This document shows, in pieces, positions 47,897 through 59,094 of a stretch of DNA of 64,000 nt. The notes under the pieces are model-generated. The model did not search any database, was not told the origin of the DNA, and saw nothing but the letters and a program-made list of their open reading frames with translations. Source of the stretch: Spiroplasma chinense (GTDB lineage Bacteria > Bacillota_I > Bacilli_A > Mycoplasmatales > Mycoplasmataceae); contig NZ_CP043026.1 in NCBI RefSeq assembly GCF_008086545.1, positions 1,240,001 to 1,304,000 of the forward strand. The letters run 5' to 3'. The number at the start of each line of letters is the position of its first letter. The stretch's first letter is position 1. Both the position numbers and the translations under genes were made by a program.

Positions 47897-49234
47897 TTAT
47901 TTATTTAATAATTCAAACATTGTTCTTGTCATTGGTGCTCTACCACGTCTATTTCTGTCAGCAGTTGCTGCAATATCCAAGTGAATGTATGATTTTTCTT
48001 CTGCAAATGAATTTAAGAATGCAGCTGCAGTTGATGAACCAGCTTCTCTTCCTGGTTCTGAGTTAACAAGATCTGCAACTTGTGAACATTGCATTGCTTT
48101 TAAATGATCTGCTATCATTGGTTGTCTTCAAACTGGTTCTTGTGCTGAATCTGCAGCACTTTCAAATTCTGAGTAGAATTGGTTGTCTGAAGCAAATGTT
48201 CCAGTAAATCATCTTCCTAATGCAACAGCAATAGCTCCTGTTAAAGTAGCTACAGTAATAACTCTTTCAGCTTTTTCATTTCTTACAGCGTAAGTAATTC
48301 CATCAGCCAATACTAATCTACCTTCAGCATCAGTGTTTGTAATTTCAACTGTTTGTCCGTTCATTGATGTTAAAACAGATTCTGTTAAAGTTGCTTTTCC
48401 ACCAATTCTGTTATCAGTTAATAGACCAACTGAAACTACATTACATTTTGCACCTTTTTTAGCTAAAGCCATAACTGTTGAAGAAACAATTGCAGCTCCT
48501 GACATATCAAATTTCATGTTTTCTAAGAAGTTAGCAGGTTTTAAGTTATATCCTCCTGAGTCGAAAGTAATTCCTTTTCCTACTAAAGCAGTTCTTTTAG
48601 CACTTGGATCTCCAACGTATTCTAAAACAACAACTCTTGGGTCAACATAACTTCCAGCATTAACTCCTAAAAGTAATCCCATTTTCATGTCTTCAATTTG
48701 TTTTTTATCGTAAATTGTAATTTTTACACCATTTACTGTTTTTGCTTTTTCTTCAATTCTTTTTGCAATTTCAACTGATGTACCAACGTTTGGTGGTAAG
48801 TCTTGTAAGTCTCTTGCAAAGTTTACAAATTCCATTTTAATTTCTGAGTCTTTGAAGATTGTTTCAAATTTTGCATCAAAAATTAAGTCATAATTTTTTT
48901 GTTTTTTAACTTCTTTTTTCATTTCGAACACTTGGTGTGATCAGAACATAAAACTTTCAGTTAAAACTTGGAAAACTTCTTCTTTGTTTTCAAAAACTTC
49001 AACAAATGAGTTTAAGTCTACGTTTAAATCATATTTATTATTTGCTACGAATCCCTCAACTAATTTTTTTAAAGCTTCTAAGTCAGCTTTTGCATCTACA
49101 CATAAGTAGATTGTTTTTTCTTCAGCTACTAAAGTTGAAACTCCTGCTTCTTTTAAAACAACAGAGTTAACGTTTGAATCTTTAGTACAAGCTTTCAAAG
49201 TTAATTCATAAGTATTTTTATTACTTGTAATCAT
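47897..49234 (-). CDS. pepA: Leucyl aminopeptidase (M17)
   Basis: 445 residues. The signature NTDAEGRL is intact, and metal and catalytic residues are visible in GKGITFDSGGYNLKP, MKFDMSGAA and TDAEGR. It removes N-terminal residues from peptides and is typically a hexamer. The start at 49234 lies 12 bases after GAGGAG; the ATG at 49246 is directly adjacent to GAGGAG, leaving no room, so the shorter start is preferred. Two TGA Trp codons interrupt the frame (FMFWSHQ, GRWFTGT). Confidence 0.93.
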
Positions 49235-49279
49235 TTTTTGTGTCATCTCCTCTATATATATAAGTATCTTACCACTTTA

Positions 49280-49873
49280 TTAATTAATTAAAAATTTATT
49301 ATCACAAATTTTATTTCTACATGTTCCATATATGTACATTTCAAAATATGGTTTATCTTTATGGTAAGTTAAAAATGTTCGTTTAACTCCATGACCATTT
49401 TCACATCTCATTTTTCTATTTGCTAATTTAGTATTTGTATTTGTGAACTTAGATCTTAAAGCATAAATATAATAAGTTTCTTTTTTAAGTCTTAAGTTTT
49501 GGTCTTCAATTTCACTTAAAACTAAAAATCTTAAGTTTTCTAGTTTCTTTTCTTTTTTTCTGAATTTTGAAGACTCTTTATTTTCTTTTTTAAAATTATA
49601 AATATGAGTTTTTCATCTTTGCAATATATTTATAGATTCACCAATATAAGAAAATTTTAAGGTTTTATCTTTTTTAAAAGAATATATTAAATAAACTCCA
49701 GATATTTTTTCAGGCAAGTCTTTAATGGTGTCAACATTATAGACTTGCCTTGTTTTTTCAAGTTCAGTAACAAATTTAGTGCAATATTCACTACTCGTTT
49801 GTTTGTATTTTACATCTCTACTTGTTTTTGTTTTTCAAATATATTTATATTGCTTTTCAAAATCTTTATTCAT
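49280..49873 (-). CDS. GIY-YIG nuclease domain protein
   Basis: 197 residues. It shows the GIY-YIG core: GVYLIYSFKKDKTLKFSYIGESINILQRWKTHIYNF near residues 62-95, with the catalytic Arg, and a catalytic-type Glu in LKKETYYIYALRSKFTNTN near 135. These are usually metal-dependent DNA endonucleases of repair, homing or phage origin. The N-terminus has a helical region, and a C-terminal Cys pair (CRNKICDN) may bind metal. TAGAGG precedes the ATG at 49873. It sits directly ahead of pepA with about 34 bases between. Target unknown. Confidence 0.75.
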
Positions 49874-49925: not shown

Positions 49926-49950
49926 AAAAACACGTCAGTGACGTGTATTT
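49926..49950. terminator. Terminator of the lipoprotein array
   Basis: AACACGTC and GACGTGT form a stem with a short AGT loop flanked by A and T runs. It ends the six-gene leftward transcript. Confidence 0.7.
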
Positions 49951-51338
49951 TAATAATCTAAAATTGCTATCAAATAAAGAGCTTTACCTTCATCCACATA
50001 ATCTGAATTTCTTTTTCCTAACAGTTGTAAAGTATCTGCCAGTTCAAGTGTATCTGTTGGCAATAAAGGTTCTAAAACTAATTGATTGTTTTTTGACACT
50101 TCTCTAAAAACATCAAAGTCTTTGTAGATATCTAAAAATGGAACTTCATTTTTTAATTGCACATTTGCGGCATCTAAAACTTCTTTGTAACTTCCAATTT
50201 TAATATTAAAAGCATTGTAATCATCAAAAGATGTAATGTTAACATCTAGTTCTAATGTTTCTATGTTTTCATTTTTAACAATTAATTTATTTAATGCTTG
50301 AGTTTTTTTAATGTAATCTGGAGCATTAGTTAAATCAATATTGATATCAGAATCATTTAAAATTAAATCTACATCAGCTTTTTTTAATTGTTCATTTAAG
50401 CTTTTTAAAAGTTCTGCCTTAACATCTTGTTTTTTAGTTCCTGCCATAATTGTTGGACTTAATTTAAATTCACTTAAATCTCCTGGCATCACAGTAGTTT
50501 TAACTTTATTTTCATAAAGAGTATTTCCACTAATTGCTTCTATTAAAAACTCATCCCCTGGTTTTGAAACGTATTTAGAATCAAAAACAACTTGATCATT
50601 ACCTCTGTAAACAATTATTGAAACGTTTCCGTAGTAATTTGGTAGTTCATTTTTGATAGCTATTCTAACTCTTTCTATATCAAGAAAGGCTTTAATTTTA
50701 ATATTGATATTTGAAATATCTAATTTTTTAATTGTGTAAGTAGTTTTATAACTACCTGTTAGTGCTCTTGAATCCTCAGAAGCTTTTACTTCTATTACAG
50801 CTCCATCAACAATATAACCAGACATATAGTTAAATCTGTCTGAATTTTCTCCATCAACTAAAACTATAAAATCACTTTCTGAGAAGAACCTTGGATTTAA
50901 ATCATAAATTTTGTCAGATATCATTCTTTTTAAATCAGTATATCTAATCTCTTCATCAAATGATAATTTAAGTTTTGAAAGATCTGCTCTTGTATCAAAA
51001 ATTTGAAATTCAGTATCTGCAAATCTTCTAAATTCTGTATCTAATACTTTAATATGAATTACATCACCATTCTTAATAATGTAATCATCAGTTAGTTTAG
51101 TTTCTTTAGAATCTTTTTTAATGTAAACTTCGTACTCACTCATTAATAAGAAATAATTTGTGCTAGCATAAGAATCTCAGATTTTATATTTAACTTGTTT
51201 ACCATTATCCCCAACAAAAATATTTGAAACTTCTGGAAGTGTGGCAAAACCCATTTTTGGTTCACCACAAGAAACCGCTAACGAAGATGAACTTGCAGCA
51301 ATTGTAAAAGATCCTAATAATTGTAAAATTTTTTTCAT
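49950..51338 (-). CDS. Long-type (A) tandem-module lipoprotein, cassette 3
   Basis: 462 residues with Cys at position 24 of the signal peptide (MKKILQLLGSFTIAASSSSLAVSC). The mature part is about five copies of an ~85-95 residue module. Each copy has a helix, then a strand, a turn with an Asp, and a pattern such as DDYIIKNGDVIHIKVLD and GYIVDGAVIEVKASED. It pairs with the short-type gene 51350-52315 upstream, eleven bases away. The frame runs through a TGA Trp (KIWDSYAS). Predicted extracellular, membrane-anchored; function unknown. Last gene of the array, followed by the terminator 49926-49950. Confidence 0.82.
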
Positions 51339-51349
51339 TTCATCATCAC

Positions 51350-52315
51350 CTAATACCTTACCATTTTAATTGCAACTTCTGCTTCTTCAAAAATGTTTCC
51401 CATTGTTTTAACAACAACCTGGTCTCCAGTTTGCAGAGCATTTAAATTGTCATCTCATGCTAAAATTTCTGTACTTCCATCTTTGTGGGTTCTAATAACT
51501 TCTTTGACTTTTCAATCTTCATTTTCTATAGTTGAAGATACTTGAAAATAATAAGACTCTAATAAATTTTGTAATCCATATTCAAAACGGTCTACAAATA
51601 ATTCTTTATCGTTTTGACCAGTCATGTTAGCCATTTCTATTACAAATGGTTTTAAATTATATTTTCTAAATTCATTTTCCAAAATTTTAGATCCTGAAAA
51701 CATTTCTGCACCTTTTTGTGCAACCATTTTAATTCTATTACCAGCACCAATTTGTGTAGTTAGATTAGTGTCGTCAATTAAAACAAAACCTTGTTTTGTT
51801 TCGGCATAAACATCTACTTTTGGATCTGGACCGTCACTGTATCTTTCTATTTCTTTAATAACCTCTTCTTTTAAAGTCTTATATGTGTTTGTAAAAAACA
51901 TTCTCTTGCCATCCAATATATAAGAAAAATTAGACATTCCTAGATCAGTACCTTTCGCTCTTGCTCATGTTGTGAAATAACCTCCATAAGGATCTGCACT
52001 TCTTTTTGCAGCAACAAGAATTTTATCGTCGTATTCAGCTATATAATCATCATTAAAATCTATCATCACTTCATTTCTTACCATGTAGACATCAACACTT
52101 CGTATAGAAAGTCTTCTTCCAAAATCACTTAAAGCTTTGTCTAGGTTTTCTAAAATCTCTTCTTTTGTTTCATTAACATACATTTTAAAATTTATTTGAC
52201 TTATATTTTTTCCCGGGAATTGCTCACCCACCGAGGTAAATGTACCGCAAGCAGTTGTTAATGCTGGCGTTGCAATAATACTTACTGCACCCAATAAACT
52301 CAATATTTTTTTCAT
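51350..52315 (-). CDS. Short-type (B) tandem-module lipoprotein, cassette 3
   Basis: 321 residues; lipobox Cys at 23 (MKKILSLLGAVSIIATPALTTAC). It has a module with SVDVYMVRNEVMIDFNDDYI, then ILVAAKRSADPYGG and two more module-like stretches. It is a paralogue of 53748-54680 and 56099-57040. ISQINFKMYVNETKEEILENL corresponds to ISYIEFSLRLEATQKEVLEDL in the first copy. It ends eleven bases before the long-type gene with GGTGATG before the next start. TGA Trp codons occur in the frame. Confidence 0.82.
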
Positions 52316-52347
52316 TTATTTGTCCTCTCTCTCATTCATACTCTTTT

Positions 52348-53736
52348 TTAAATAAAAGTTATTTTAGATTGTTTCACGTTGTATGCAAGAAATTCTGCAC
52401 CATATGCACTATCAAAATAAATTGTTTTGCCAGAAAGATTTGTAAAATCTGTTGGTTCTAGCAAACGTCTTCCTTCTTCATTTAGGAATTCCAATTCTTT
52501 TGTAATATCAAAGAATGGGAAATCTGCATGTATTAATTCTTCAAATTGTTTCATAAAAGTTTCATAATCATATCAATAAAGTACATAGTTCTTAAATGGT
52601 AAATCGATTCTTTGTATATATAATCTTTGTTCCAAGTTTTTTCCGTTTGTGTACTCATTATTTATAAACGCAAAAAGACCATCATTTGCTTTAACTGTAT
52701 AATCATCCTCAAATCCAGTTTCATCTGCATAGTATCTGATTACAATATCACTAGTTTTAAAAGTAATATTGTAATTATTATTTTTAAAATATGAATTGAA
52801 AGTTTCTACTATCATTTTTTTAGCTTCACCAACAGTCTGACCTGCATTAATTTTAAAAGTTGAATAATTTACAAACGTAGTATCCATTCCAAGAACATTT
52901 CTTTGTAAAGATCCTTTATATAAATTACTGTTAGGTTTTGCATCAAAACTAATTATGTCTCCTTCAACTGATTCGTACTCTTCATTAAATTCAACTAAAG
53001 TTCCATTTCTTTTAACAGTAATATCAATGTTATCTTCTCATCCTGGGAATAAAAAGTTTAATTCTTCTGCTATTCCTTGGTGCGTTTGATTTTTAAAGAT
53101 TGTAGCTTTAAAGTCCTTAAGGTCTTCTACTCCTAAAATAACTTTTGTTTCATAACTTCCAACTAATCTAGTTGAAGTTGGCACAGCTTCAATCTTTACA
53201 GTGTCTCCTTCTTTAACGAAGTCTTTACCATTTAAGTCTAAAATATTTTTATTATTTATAAAAATTTCAAAATCTTCTTTTATATAACTAGAAGGATAAG
53301 ATCTGTTCAATCTTTCTATAGCTATTTCTAAAATTTTTTCAACTGAATATAATTTTTTATAAGTTAAACGAATGTTTCCTATTTTTGTTCTTTTTTCAGA
53401 AACCACTATCCTTAAATCTTCATACTTTCTTAATTCTTTATCTTTTGGTGTCATTATGATTACATCATTTGCTTTAATTATGTAATCATCTTTTAACTCC
53501 ACTCTCTCTTCATTAACTTCTAGGAAAAATTCTAAAGCAGAAAATGCAAAGTGAGCAGATATAGCTGTTTGGTCTTGTCAAAGAATTATTTTTGCTTCAA
53601 GACCAGTATGACCTATTCTAATTTTTCCTGAGTTATAAAAATTTCTATTATAGAATGTATCTTGACAAGATACAGTTGTAGCTGCGGTTGACGCTACAAC
53701 AGTCAATGAACCAATAAGTCTTAACAATTTTCTCAT
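52348..53736 (-). CDS. Long-type (A) tandem-module lipoprotein, cassette 2
   Basis: 462 residues, the same length as the cassette-3 copy. The signal peptide is MRKLLRLIGSLTVVASTAATTVSC with Cys at 24. Tandem modules are visible with DDYIIKANDVIIMTPKD, EDFEIFINNKNILDLNG and KEGDTVKIEAVPTS. Compared with the other A proteins, Asp-Tyr-Ile and Gly-Asp motifs recur at 85-95 residue spacing. It follows the short-type gene 53748-54680 by eleven bases. Confidence 0.82.
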
Positions 53737-53747
53737 TTTAATTCCCC

Positions 53748-54680
53748 CTAACCTGATATTTCTATTTCTTGTGTTTCTTTGTTAAAGAAGTTTCCCATGA
53801 AATTAACAGTGATTTTATCTTTAATAGTTAATTGGTCAACTTCACTTCAAGGTTTGTCTTCACCATTAAAGCTCATCTTTTCAATAGTTCAATCTTGGTC
53901 TAATGAAACATTTATATCGTTCAAATATTTCTTTGAAACAAATTCATTTAATTTTTCTGATAAGAAGTTTTCAAAAGCCTCTTTATCTTTTCCAAGTCCA
54001 AGATTGAAGAAAGAAACTTTTGGCATTTTCATAACATCAACTTTTTTTGAATGGTATGTATATTCTAAGTTTCCTGTAATTTCAAACGAATCTTGAGTTG
54101 TTTCAATTTTTATGACATCTTTGTCTTTTAAAATTGTGTCTAAATTTTCTTGTCCTATTTTATTTTTGTTTATGTAAATTGAAAATTTACTTCCTTTATA
54201 TTTTTGACCTAAGAAATTATCTATTGAACTTTTTACATCTGAATAAGTACTATCTGGAGCTAAAATTTTACCATCAAAAACTCTATCTCATCCCAGCCTT
54301 CCAATATCATCTCTTCCTTCTTCGGCTAATGCAGTGATAGTTCCTCCAAGTGGATAATAATCAAATTTTAAAGTAGCCACTAAGTAATCACCTTCTCGAA
54401 CAATATAGTTATCTGTAAAGTTTACAAAGTCATAATTTCTTAATATCGAAATATCTAATGAATCTATAGACAGGTCAATATTAAAATTTTTCATTAATGT
54501 ATCTAATTCTGTTTTTATAGTCTTTCCGGTTTTACCAATTAAGAACTTGTAGTTAATTGATGTTATATCATTATGATCTTTTATATAGTCTTCATAGTAG
54601 TTTTGTGAAAAACAAGAAACAGTAGCTGTTGAAGAACTTACAAGTGAAATACTTGCTAAAGTCATTAATATTTTTTTCAT
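53748..54680 (-). CDS. Short-type (B) tandem-module lipoprotein, cassette 2
   Basis: 310 residues; Cys at 23 (MKKILMTLASISLVSSSTATVSC). Module core: LDISILRNYDFVNFTDNYIVREGDYLVA, then DYYPLGGTIT. It shares this pattern with the other two B proteins, so it is part of the same duplicated unit. The C-terminus ends EIEISG. Unknown function; predicted surface-anchored. Confidence 0.82.
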
Positions 54681-54712
54681 AAATATTCCCCCTTTTTATT
54701 TATTTTGTTTTA

Positions 54713-56086
54713 TTACAATTGGCATTTTTTGCCTTCAATTATATATTTAGAACTCGTTAGAGTTTTAAGTATTAAATAATCTTGACCTTTTTCTCCAAAG
54801 TCTGGAGTATAATCTGCTGTAATTTTCTCATCTTTTTTATTTGTTATTTCATATTCTCTATCCATTTCAAAATCAGGAAAATTACCTTTAATTGTAGTTT
54901 CAATTTCTTGGATTAAAGTTTCGTAATCACTTCAAATAAAACCAGAACTTAAACTTAATTCACCAAGCGAAACATCAATTATACTTACTCTTGCATTTAC
55001 ATTAGAAGTTAAACCGTTGTTTATGTAACTACAATAAACATTTGTAGAATCTTTTGTTATATATGTATCATTTTTTAAACCAGTTATTTGAAGATCTTTT
55101 TCACTAACTGTTATACCAATTTTTTCCTTTTCAAAGTAGGCGTTCATTTTATTTGCAAGAGCTTGCAATGAATCTGATGTTTTTTTTCCTAAAGTTAAAG
55201 TTAAATAAAGATTTGCAAAGTTAACTCTTCGTTTAACAATTGTTGCCTGAAGTTCTCCTTTAAGAACTTTGTTACCCTCAATAGATTTAATTACAAATTT
55301 ATCATTCTGTTCAACAATGTAATTGCTATCAAATTCTATTTTTTTACCATCTCTTGTTATAGAAATTTCAGCATTGCCTTCTCAATATGATAATTTATTA
55401 TTTATTTCACTTAACACTTCGTCATAAAGACTAAAACTATTAAGTTCTAAATAAAGAAGTGAAATGTTAAATCTTGGTAAAATAACTTCCAGATTTATAG
55501 ATCCTTTTAAAATTTGAGAAAACTCTAATGCTTTAATTTCTACATGTGAGTATTCTTCTACAATATAGCTTGAATCATATTCTTCATAGTTTTTTCCATC
55601 AATTAATACTTCATAATCAGTTTTAAAAATTGCCATTGGCGCTAAATCTGTTATGGTTTTTGAAACTTTTTCAAAAACTTCTTTAACTGTTAATTCTCTA
55701 TCAAGTGTTATTTTTAATTTGTCTAATTTTTTTCTGTTATCTTTTACTACAAAAGACATATCTCTATAACGATTAACAGATTTGTCCAATATTTTTATAA
55801 ACAAAGTATCTTCTGGTTGAATGACATAATCATCTTTCAATAAAATCTTTTCATTTTGAGTTTGTAAATAAACTTCATAATCATCTAATGTTAAATAAAT
55901 TCTGTTATTTAAAAACTCATTTCAAATTTTGTACTTTACTTGTGCTCCTGTATCAAATATTTTAATACTATTAAATTCAGGCAATGAAATTGAACTACCT
56001 TCAGAAGTTGTTTTACAAGCAACAACACTAGTTGCTGTACTGGTTAAAGCGGTGAGAGACAGTGTTAGTTTTAATAATTTTTTCAT
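54713..56086 (-). CDS. Long-type (A) tandem-module lipoprotein, cassette 1
   Basis: 457 residues; Cys at 24 (MKKLLKLTLSLTALTSTATSVVAC). Module motifs DDYVIQPEDTLFIKILD, KTDYEVLIDGKNYEEYDSS and DSNYIVEQNDKFVIKSIEG recur. It shows the same arrangement as the A proteins of cassettes 2 and 3, and is likewise followed by a B gene. Starts with a purine-rich RBS (AAGGAGG) before ATG 56086. The C-terminus ends KKCQL. Confidence 0.82.
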
Positions 56087-56098
56087 GTCCAAACCTCC

Positions 56099-57040
56099 TT
56101 ATTGTTCTATAATTACAAAAATAGTTTCATTAGATTGAAGTGTTTCTCCTTTAAAGTCCACACTTATAAAAGCCATATCTGGTATTGTTTCTACTTCATC
56201 TCAATTAACTATAATATTCTCTGGATCTTTATATTCTTCAAGACCTTTAATAACTCAATCAATACCTTGAACCAAATTTATTTGTCCAAAATAGAACGAT
56301 GATGCTCTTTGATTAACAGTAGCACTTAATCAATTTTCAAAATCTTGTTTTGAATTACCTCCCATATCTTTAAAAGAAGGGGGTTGAAAATCTGAATCCA
56401 TTTTTTCAAACTTGTGTTTTATTTCTTTATAACCTTTATATTTTTTTGAATTTTCTGGAGCATCAATTCTAATAATCGCTTCATTTCCTATTAATGTATT
56501 TTCATTTTCTTGTGTAACTTCTTTATCATTAATTGTTATTTTGAAACCTTCTTCTTTCAAGTTTCCAGAAATTCTTGTATTCATATCATTATATATATCT
56601 TTGTATGTTGTTGAAAAGTGAATATTTGATGTTGTAAGGAAAAGACTTTGTCTTAAATCTTTAAGGTCTTCTCTTAATTCTTCAGCAGTTCTTCTTAAAA
56701 CACCTTTATAAGGATCTGCTTCTTTTTTTGCCATTACAACTATTTCATCATTTTCTTGAACTATATAGTTTTCATCAAAGGATACAAATTGTTCATTTCT
56801 AACAATTTGTATAAATAAGTCTTTAACCCTTAGACGTGTTGAAAAAATTTCAACTGCATTTTCTAAGTCTTCTAACACTTCTTTTTGTGTTGCTTCAAGT
56901 CTAAGACTAAATTCTATATATGATATATTTTTATCTGAAGGAAGATAATCATTTGTTACAGTTACTCCTCCACAAGCAACAACTGTTGCACTTGAACCAA
57001 ACATTGATATAGCTCCCACTAAACTTAATAATTTTTTCAT
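56099..57040 (-). CDS. Short-type (B) tandem-module lipoprotein, cassette 1
   Basis: 313 residues; Cys at 23 (MKKLLSLVGAISMFGSSATVVAC). Module core: FIQIVRNEQFVSFDENYIVQENDEIVVMAKKEADPYKG. It is first in the array on the transcript. Stop TAA at 56101-56099 lies 12 bases before the next gene's ATG. The upstream intergenic region (57041-57309) contains two inverted repeats and presumably the operon promoter. Confidence 0.82.
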
Positions 57041-57182: not shown

Positions 57183-57275
57183 ATACTTGTAAATCTTTAA
57201 TACCTTTCTATAAAGAAATTATATATTATATTGCACCAATTTGAAACAGAGCAACCAGACTTTTTTATCTTATTT

Positions 57276-57285
57276 TGTGTATAAT
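57276..57285 (+). promoter_or_regulatory. Extended -10 promoter of the acetyltransferase gene
   Basis: TGTGTATAAT: perfect TATAAT at 57280-57285 with an upstream TG at 57276-57277. The -35 is weak. It is about 25 bases ahead of the ATG. Confidence 0.5.
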
Positions 57286-57309
57286 TCATATATACGAAAG
57301 GAGATTTAT

Positions 57310-57801
57310 ATGTATATAAAATTTGACAAAGCTGTTTTATCAGATTTGGATAAGATATACCAAATAGAGGTTGAAAATTTTGTTCCCCAAGAAGTACTTT
57401 CAAGAGAGACTTACAAAGAGAGAATAGAAAAGATATCTTCTTCATTTATAGTTGCTCGTGATGAGCTAGGTAAAGTTATGGGATTTATAGTTGGAAAAAG
57501 TTCATCATCACTTTATCTTGAGGATGAAGTTTTTACGATTACAAAAGAAAATATTGATAGCGATCCTTATTATTGAGTAGTAACTTTAGCCGTTGACAAA
57601 GAATGTCAAAAATTTAAAATTGGTTCTAGACTTATACAAAATTTCTTAGAACAAGCCAAGAGTGAAGGCAAAAAAGCTGTTTCATTAACTTGTGTTAAGG
57701 AATTGGTCACTTATTATGAAAAATTCAATTTCAAAAATCACGGTGTTTCTGAATCTAAATTTGCAGGACATACATGATACAATATGGTATTTGAATTTTA
57801 A
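57310..57801 (+). CDS. GNAT-family acetyltransferase
   Basis: 163 residues. A GNAT fold is indicated by an N-terminal motif with VLSDLDKIYQIEVENF and the AcCoA-binding KFKIGSRLIQNFLEQAK (motif A, Gly and basic residues) near residues 105-121, followed by SLTCVKELVTYYEKFNF. It resembles the RimI or arylalkylamine-type branch; the substrate (N-terminus, amine or other) is unknown. GAAAGGAG lies upstream of the ATG at 57310. It is divergent from the lipoprotein array. A TGA Trp (YYWVVTLAV) hides its second half. Confidence 0.85.
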
Positions 57802-57847: not shown

Positions 57848-57877
57848 AAAAACTCATAACTTGCGTTATGAGTTTTT
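57848..57877 (-). terminator. Terminator of tuf
   Basis: AAAAACTCATAAC and GTTATGAGTTTTT, a 13-base stem with the loop TTGC, followed by T on the minus strand. Confidence 0.85.
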
Positions 57878-57906: not shown

Positions 57907-59094
57907 TTATTCGATAATTGAAACAACTGTTCCAGCACCAATAGTTCTTCCACCTTCACGGATTGAGAATTTTGTACCTTGTTCAACAGCGATAGGTTTA
58001 ATTAATTCAACAACTAATTCAACGTTATCTCCAGGCATAACCATGTCTGTTCCTTCAGGTAAGTGTACTTCACCAGTTACGTCAGTTGTACGGAAGTAGA
58101 ATTGTGGACGGTATTTGTTAAAGAATGGTTTGTGACGTCCACCTTCTTCTTGAGTTAAAGCATAAACTGAAGCGTTTAATTTTGTATGAGGTTTGATTGT
58201 TCCTGGTTTTGCAAGAACTTGACCACGTTCGATGTCTTCTCTGTTAACCCCTCTTAATAATGCTCCAACGTTATCTCCAGCTTCAGCAAAGTCTAGTAAT
58301 TTTCTAAACATTTCTAATCCTGTAACAACAACTTTTTTGCTTTCTTCTACTAATCCAACGATTTCAACTTCTTCGTTAACTTTAACGATTCCTCTTTCAA
58401 CTCTACCTGTAGCAACAGTTCCACGTCCTGTAATTGTGAAAACGTCTTCTACTGGCATTAAGAAAGTTTTGTCTGTATCACGAGTTGGTTCAGGAATGTA
58501 TGCATCAACTGCAGCCATTAATTCTTCGATTTTTTCAACTCATTTTGCATCACCGTTTAATGCTCCTAGAGCTGAACCTCTAATTACAGGTGCTCCGTCT
58601 CCATCAAAGTCGTATGCTGAAAGTAAGTCTCTTACTTCCATTTCAACAAGGTCGATTAATTCTTCATCATCAACCATGTCACATTTGTTTAAGAAAACAA
58701 CGATAGCTGGAACTCCAACTTGTCTTGAAAGTAAGATGTGTTCTCTTGTTTGAGGCATAGGTCCATCAGTTGCAGCAACAACTAAGATCCCACCATCCAT
58801 TTGTGCAGCACCAGTAATCATGTTTTTAACATAATCGGCGTGACCTGGACAGTCTACGTGTGCGTAGTGTCTGTTTTCTGTTTTGTATTCAACGTGTGAT
58901 GTATTAATTGTAATACCACGTTCTCTTTCTTCAGGAGCGTTATCGATGTTTGCGTAATCTGTAAAAGTTGCTCCTCCTTTTTCAGCTAAAACTTTAGTAA
59001 TAGCAGCTGTTAATGTAGTTTTACCGTGGTCAACGTGTCCTATTGTTCCAATATTAACGTGAGGTAAACTACGGTCAAATGATTCTTTTGCCAT
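57907..59094 (-). CDS. tuf: Elongation factor Tu
   Basis: 395 residues. GTPase motifs are [10 protein letters not shown] (residues 19-28), DCPGHADYV and NKCDMVDDE, and the switch region has [14 protein letters not shown]. It carries aminoacyl-tRNA to the ribosome. The frame contains a TGA Trp (GDAKWVEKIEEL). It is a single gene with a promoter containing an inverted repeat (59125-59162), separated from fusA by more than 100 bases, so tuf can be expressed apart from the str operon. Confidence 0.98.

Follow-up and report, generated by a model that had tools for sequence, protein, structure and literature searches.

What do six lipoprotein genes that alternate regularly between a short and a long form encode, and how did they come to stand together? 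The stretch of Spiroplasma chinense DNA analysed here (64,000 nucleotides; the window) carries such an array at positions 49950-57040, where six consecutive leftward ORFs encode a short (A) and a long (B) lipoprotein in turn. Read with genetic code 4, the genes in transcription order, all on the minus strand, are A3 (313 aa; 56099..57040), B3 (457 aa; 54713..56086), A2 (310 aa; 53748..54680), B2 (462 aa; 52348..53736), A1 (321 aa; 51350..52315) and B1 (462 aa; 49950..51338). All six are intact. The lengths and coordinates given in an earlier note on this DNA are reproduced under this table, as is its placement of the lipobox cysteine, which is residue 23 in all three A proteins and residue 24 in all three B proteins. 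The NCBIfam model LP_plasma scores over its cut-off of 24 in B1 (30.3), A1 (27.3) and B2 (25.2), and below it in the other three.

The genes are closely spaced, as had been claimed; the gaps in array order measure 12, 32, 11, 32 and 11 bp, which gives 11-12 bp within a pair and 32 bp between pairs. The sole hairpin-like match within the array lies inside A1, and its T tail is poor. Directly after B1, at the array end, there is an intrinsic-terminator-like hairpin (49930..49946, minus strand); a further terminator-like hairpin (57848..57877, minus strand) follows tuf and parts it from the array. Upstream of A3, the promoter-like site TTCAAA-16-TATAAT (57218..57245, minus strand) matches the consensus, a kind of match that is no commoner than in shuffled sequences. 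Given the tight gaps, the lack of a convincing internal terminator and the hairpin after B1, the six genes are likely to share one transcript, which is what the earlier note had thought probable. Between tuf and A3, a GNAT acetyltransferase gene (57241-57801, plus strand) runs in the opposite direction; a relative described below, G032, lacks it at the equivalent locus. Rfam gave no match in the 64-kb window.

Both types of protein are built from tandem copies of one module of about 85 residues, with about five copies in B and about three in A. In B3 the modules span residues ~37-116, 117-204, 205-287, 287-372 and 374-457; in A3 three spiralin-like modules span residues ~36-119, 124-213 and 214-313. 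A module HMM was built from B modules 2 and 3 plus one two-module lipoprotein of a relative from outside the array, with no A sequence included. It identifies five module positions in B, and modules 1 and 2 are clear in A; A module 3 is detected by this HMM only in the A protein of G032 and is placed by alignment elsewhere. Divergence is greatest in B modules 4-5 and A module 3, each of which is weak in the HMM on its own. With the signal peptide removed, the HMM scores 24.5-194 bits across all six proteins and 24.5-51.5 bits on A alone, against a maximum of 11.6 bits in 2000 shuffled sequences; the proposal that A and B are built from a common module therefore holds.

The earlier note did not recognise this module, and regarded a known family that explained it as evidence against its own reading. 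Such a family was found: Pfam Spiralin (PF05215) matches B3 in three stretches (E 1.2e-8, 35.8 bits; gathering cut-off 25) and explains the module. The other five array proteins are individually below the cut-off (A1 scores 7.4 bits), as is the B protein of G032 (19.2 bits), and the A proteins are tied to the spiralin family solely via B-derived profiles. Outside the array, the best matches of the B profile include two-module lipoproteins of relatives, which score 80.6 bits with PF05215. By profile comparison, then, the module is the Spiralin domain, over threshold in B3 and joined to it by profile in the other proteins. Spiralin proper (NCBIfam equivalog NF038030) reaches at best 11.4 bits across the array proteins, against a cut-off of 140 bits; the MOLPALP lipoprotein model (TIGR04547) reaches at best 28.5 against 65 bits, mostly from the signal peptide.

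Divergent members are already included in this family. In S. poulsonii, the divergent spiralins A-C are recognised by their domain; SpiC, a protein of 15% similarity, is so named because it has retained the spiralin domain (PMC5874924). The array proteins share with S. citri spiralin and with SpiA-C of S. poulsonii a lipoprotein signal peptide, a lipobox cysteine, domains of ~80 residues and occurrence in Spiroplasma-type Mollicutes. In contrast to these proteins, which have one or two domains, the array proteins have three or five strongly diverged modules and are encoded in repeated short-plus-long pairs.

The source genome encodes further members. A separate spiralin-domain lipoprotein of 230 aa (56.2 bits) is found at approximately G000:C1:804798-805490. 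A second cluster at G000:C1:1331081-1334620 (L079 5082-8620, minus strand) carries multi-module spiralin-domain lipoproteins, one of 466 aa (PF05215 53.8 bits, about five modules) and one of 292 aa (37.9 bits, about three modules). A 369-aa ORF between the spiralin-domain genes of this cluster was considered as a module carrier and rejected, as it is not supported by the HMMs and has no family match; a 319-aa ORF at the same site of G039, also selected by eye, was likewise not supported by the HMMs.

A model of full-length B3 has a mean pLDDT of 60.1 and is reliable just for modules 2-3; a single module was therefore folded instead. The AlphaFold model of B3 module 3 (55226..55474, minus strand), made with 16 other modules from the window in the alignment, has a pLDDT of 94.6 and a pTM of 0.80. 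It contains a single main helix and some five strands, in the order strand, helix, further strands. When A, B and a two-module spiralin relative were compared by sequence with the PDB, no match appeared up to E 1. Foldseek with the module 3 model returned no significant solved structure (best E 0.019), and nothing significant was found among the viral structures of BFVD. In a second structural comparison, the top rows were nearly all ubiquitin-like beta-grasp domains (the UFD of Uba2/Uba3, ubiquitin, NEDD8 and MoaD-type proteins), at Z 3.7-5.3 over 60-76 residues and ~3 A. The strand and helix arrangement of these domains, and of the MoaD/ThiS type in general, overlaps that of the predicted module. 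Z is confined to this level, and neither Foldseek nor sequence comparison gives a significant match; the overlap carries no implication of related function. Z scores under 8 may reflect merely a common arrangement. A beta-grasp-like fold is plausible for the modelled module. A likeness of module 2 to methionine aminopeptidase (Z up to 6.3) did not recur with the module 3 model and was discarded.

The beta-grasp rows agree with sub-threshold scores of the ThiS/MoaD profile (PF02597, cut-off 22.5 bits) on three of the six proteins: A2 (22.2 bits), B2 (20.9 bits) and A3 (17.9 bits). Taken together, these results could mean that the modules are unrelated to spiralin and belong to another beta-grasp family (ThiS/MoaD/SLBB-like), the PF05215 match being a compositional coincidence. 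This is most improbable, as B3 is over the Spiralin cut-off and the two-module spiralin proteins of relatives feature among the B profile's best outside matches, whereas ThiS is never over its cut-off and the best structural Z is just 5.3. Assignment to the Spiralin domain is preferred.

The three copies are old. At the DNA level, merely short stretches are still alignable between cassettes. A1 and A3 are 29% identical over 296 aa (E 5e-36), B1 and B3 are 27% identical over 445 aa (E 1e-50), and overall identity among the A proteins and among the B proteins is 23-29%, so that the copies have diverged to ~25%. The similarity persists when signal peptides are removed: every A-A pair then scores 69-107 bits and every B-B pair 80-163 bits, all significant. 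A lack of such similarity, which the earlier note had named as counting against its reading, is thus excluded. The A and B profiles also match each other in hhalign (98.7%, E 3e-16), a comparison which included the signal peptide. Modules of the same type and position are similar in 24 of 24 pairwise tests (Z 3-26); modules at different positions within one type are mostly dissimilar. Since same-position modules match across the copies, it is whole A+B pairs that were duplicated, long ago, with no recent copying of single modules. The cassette duplication suggested by the earlier note is thereby borne out.

Quartet trees of the three copies and G032 favour the topology (1,3 | 2,G032) for both A and B. 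The AU test rejects no topology for either quartet and the preferred topology is unsupported; consequently, the order of duplication relative to the split from G032 is not fixed by the trees.

The earlier note had also suggested that A and B are partners in a fixed stoichiometry. If they were obligate partners, each cassette would encode a heteromeric surface complex of fixed composition, and the array would encode three parallel, insulated complexes. Such partners would be expected to stay together, and A and B are indeed adjacent and 1:1 in all four copies in two species, with both genes intact at ~25% identity; gaps within pairs (1-12 bp, G032 included) are shorter than the 32 bp between pairs, and the A and B trees favour the same topology. 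It is nevertheless unlikely that they are obligate partners, because the tree preference is statistically void, block duplication alone accounts for the 1:1 count, and other spiralin-domain clusters lack regular alternation. A more elaborate proposal, in which spiralin domains would be ubiquitin-like beta-grasp modules whose tandem copies build surface rods, and A+B would form a dedicated short/long host-binding heteromer in three insulated paralogous versions, is rather improbable.

PF05215 occurs in 52 of 60 family genomes, where a single genome can have as many as 75 matches; none of the 14 control genomes has a match over the cut-off. In the looser-threshold run made for the source genome, sub-cut-off signal appeared in two control genomes. 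A survey of 320 genomes of the order found full-length A and B in two: the source genome has three of each, and G032, which belongs to the same genus, has one of each. Contig searches of the genome and viral collections with B, and of the genome collection with a spiralin-like query, gave no confirmed relatives in these collections, from which close records may be missing.

In the window, the array lies between two conserved flanks: tuf (EF-Tu; 57907..59094, minus strand), and a gene for a 197-aa GIY-YIG domain protein (49280..49873, minus strand), after which comes pepA (47897-49246). The G032 locus reads tuf - A - B - GIY-YIG protein - pepA, and the gap between its two lipoprotein genes is 1 bp. 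Its A and B (313 and 464 aa) have the same locus, order and module plan as those of the array; they differ in being one pair rather than three and are ~20-29% identical to the array proteins. In a further 18 genomes of the genus, the tuf-pepA interval contains the 197-aa gene alone (~0.7 kb) or different cargo. A and B are absent from the site in the 13 of these that were read there; in the remaining five the interval is ~0.7 kb, which is too small for A/B. As A/B are limited to two genomes at a shared site, their presence is explained by lineage-specific acquisition at a variable site.

The tuf-adjacent site is an insertion hot spot, with varied cargo among relatives (L081-L086, L088) and most sites empty. 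The cargo found between tuf and pepA includes transporter genes, putative lipoproteins and, in L086, phage-like genes. G044, G036, G035, G010 and others have between two and four copies of pepA (leucyl aminopeptidase), which are tandem or dispersed.

Multi-module spiralin-domain lipoproteins, often encoded in clusters, are found elsewhere in the family and have up to 13 modules. The clusters in G036 (1146500-1166000) and G057/G058 resemble the array in having clustered genes and a tandem domain within lipoproteins, but are not at the tuf-pepA site. Regular short/long alternation was not seen in the spiralin-domain clusters of G036, G044, G057 and G058. G058 and G057 (L128, L129) also encode lipoproteins of 1080-1855 aa, with up to 13 tandem spiralin-type modules.

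Large and variable clusters in other genomes, low identity between copies, and a copy number of three in one relative and one in the other would also be consistent with a diversification or antigenic repertoire; A and B would then be independent coat lipoproteins with no partnership, shifting in copy number and sequence under host pressure. This is somewhat unlikely. Phase-variable lipoprotein systems of the Vsp/Vlp type use simple-repeat tracts or invertible promoters; in contrast, no long simple-repeat tracts and no convincing invertible segments were found between positions 49000 and 58000. In addition, the six genes are all intact and the A/B order is regular throughout.

It is probable, though well short of certain, that the array arose by expansion, within one lineage, of spiralin-domain surface lipoproteins with a coat or host-binding role, and that the pair was acquired before the split and is probably co-transcribed. 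Each cassette would yield two lipoproteins anchored in the membrane on a lipidated N-terminal cysteine, A with three modules and B with five; the modules would project from the membrane as short and long rods and be part of the wall-less cell's protein coat. The A/B pair would have arrived between tuf and GIY-YIG-pepA before this lineage and its nearest sampled relative separated, and is now present as three diverged copies. The major surface lipoprotein of S. citri is spiralin, a lectin that recognises vector glycoproteins and without which transmission is not efficient (PMC4804543). By analogy with this protein, we infer surface exposure and a coat or host-binding role for A and B, whose rods may bind surface ligands of the (arthropod) host; modules so diverged may not share the lectin activity known from S. 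citri.

In the array, a known family of surface-coat proteins has expanded on a small scale within one lineage; the system is not of a new kind, and it reveals no new mechanism. The domain family itself is already known; what is new is the diverged, paired, multi-module cassette. A named domain with no solved relative by sequence is thus extended to paired, multi-module lipoproteins, and a confident single-module model is now available for it. The four A/B pairs also provide a natural set on which to test whether surface proteins of a wall-less bacterium associated with insects co-evolve and pair.

Elsewhere in the window, a phage origin for the region at 15-30 kb was ruled out; the genes there are ribosomal-protein genes, secY, adk and rpoA. 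The ribosomal protein L29 gene (24242-25306, minus strand) encodes 354 aa, of which the L29 match is limited to residues 10-65 and is followed by an extension of ~290 residues. In Mollicutes, ribosomal proteins with long extensions are known.
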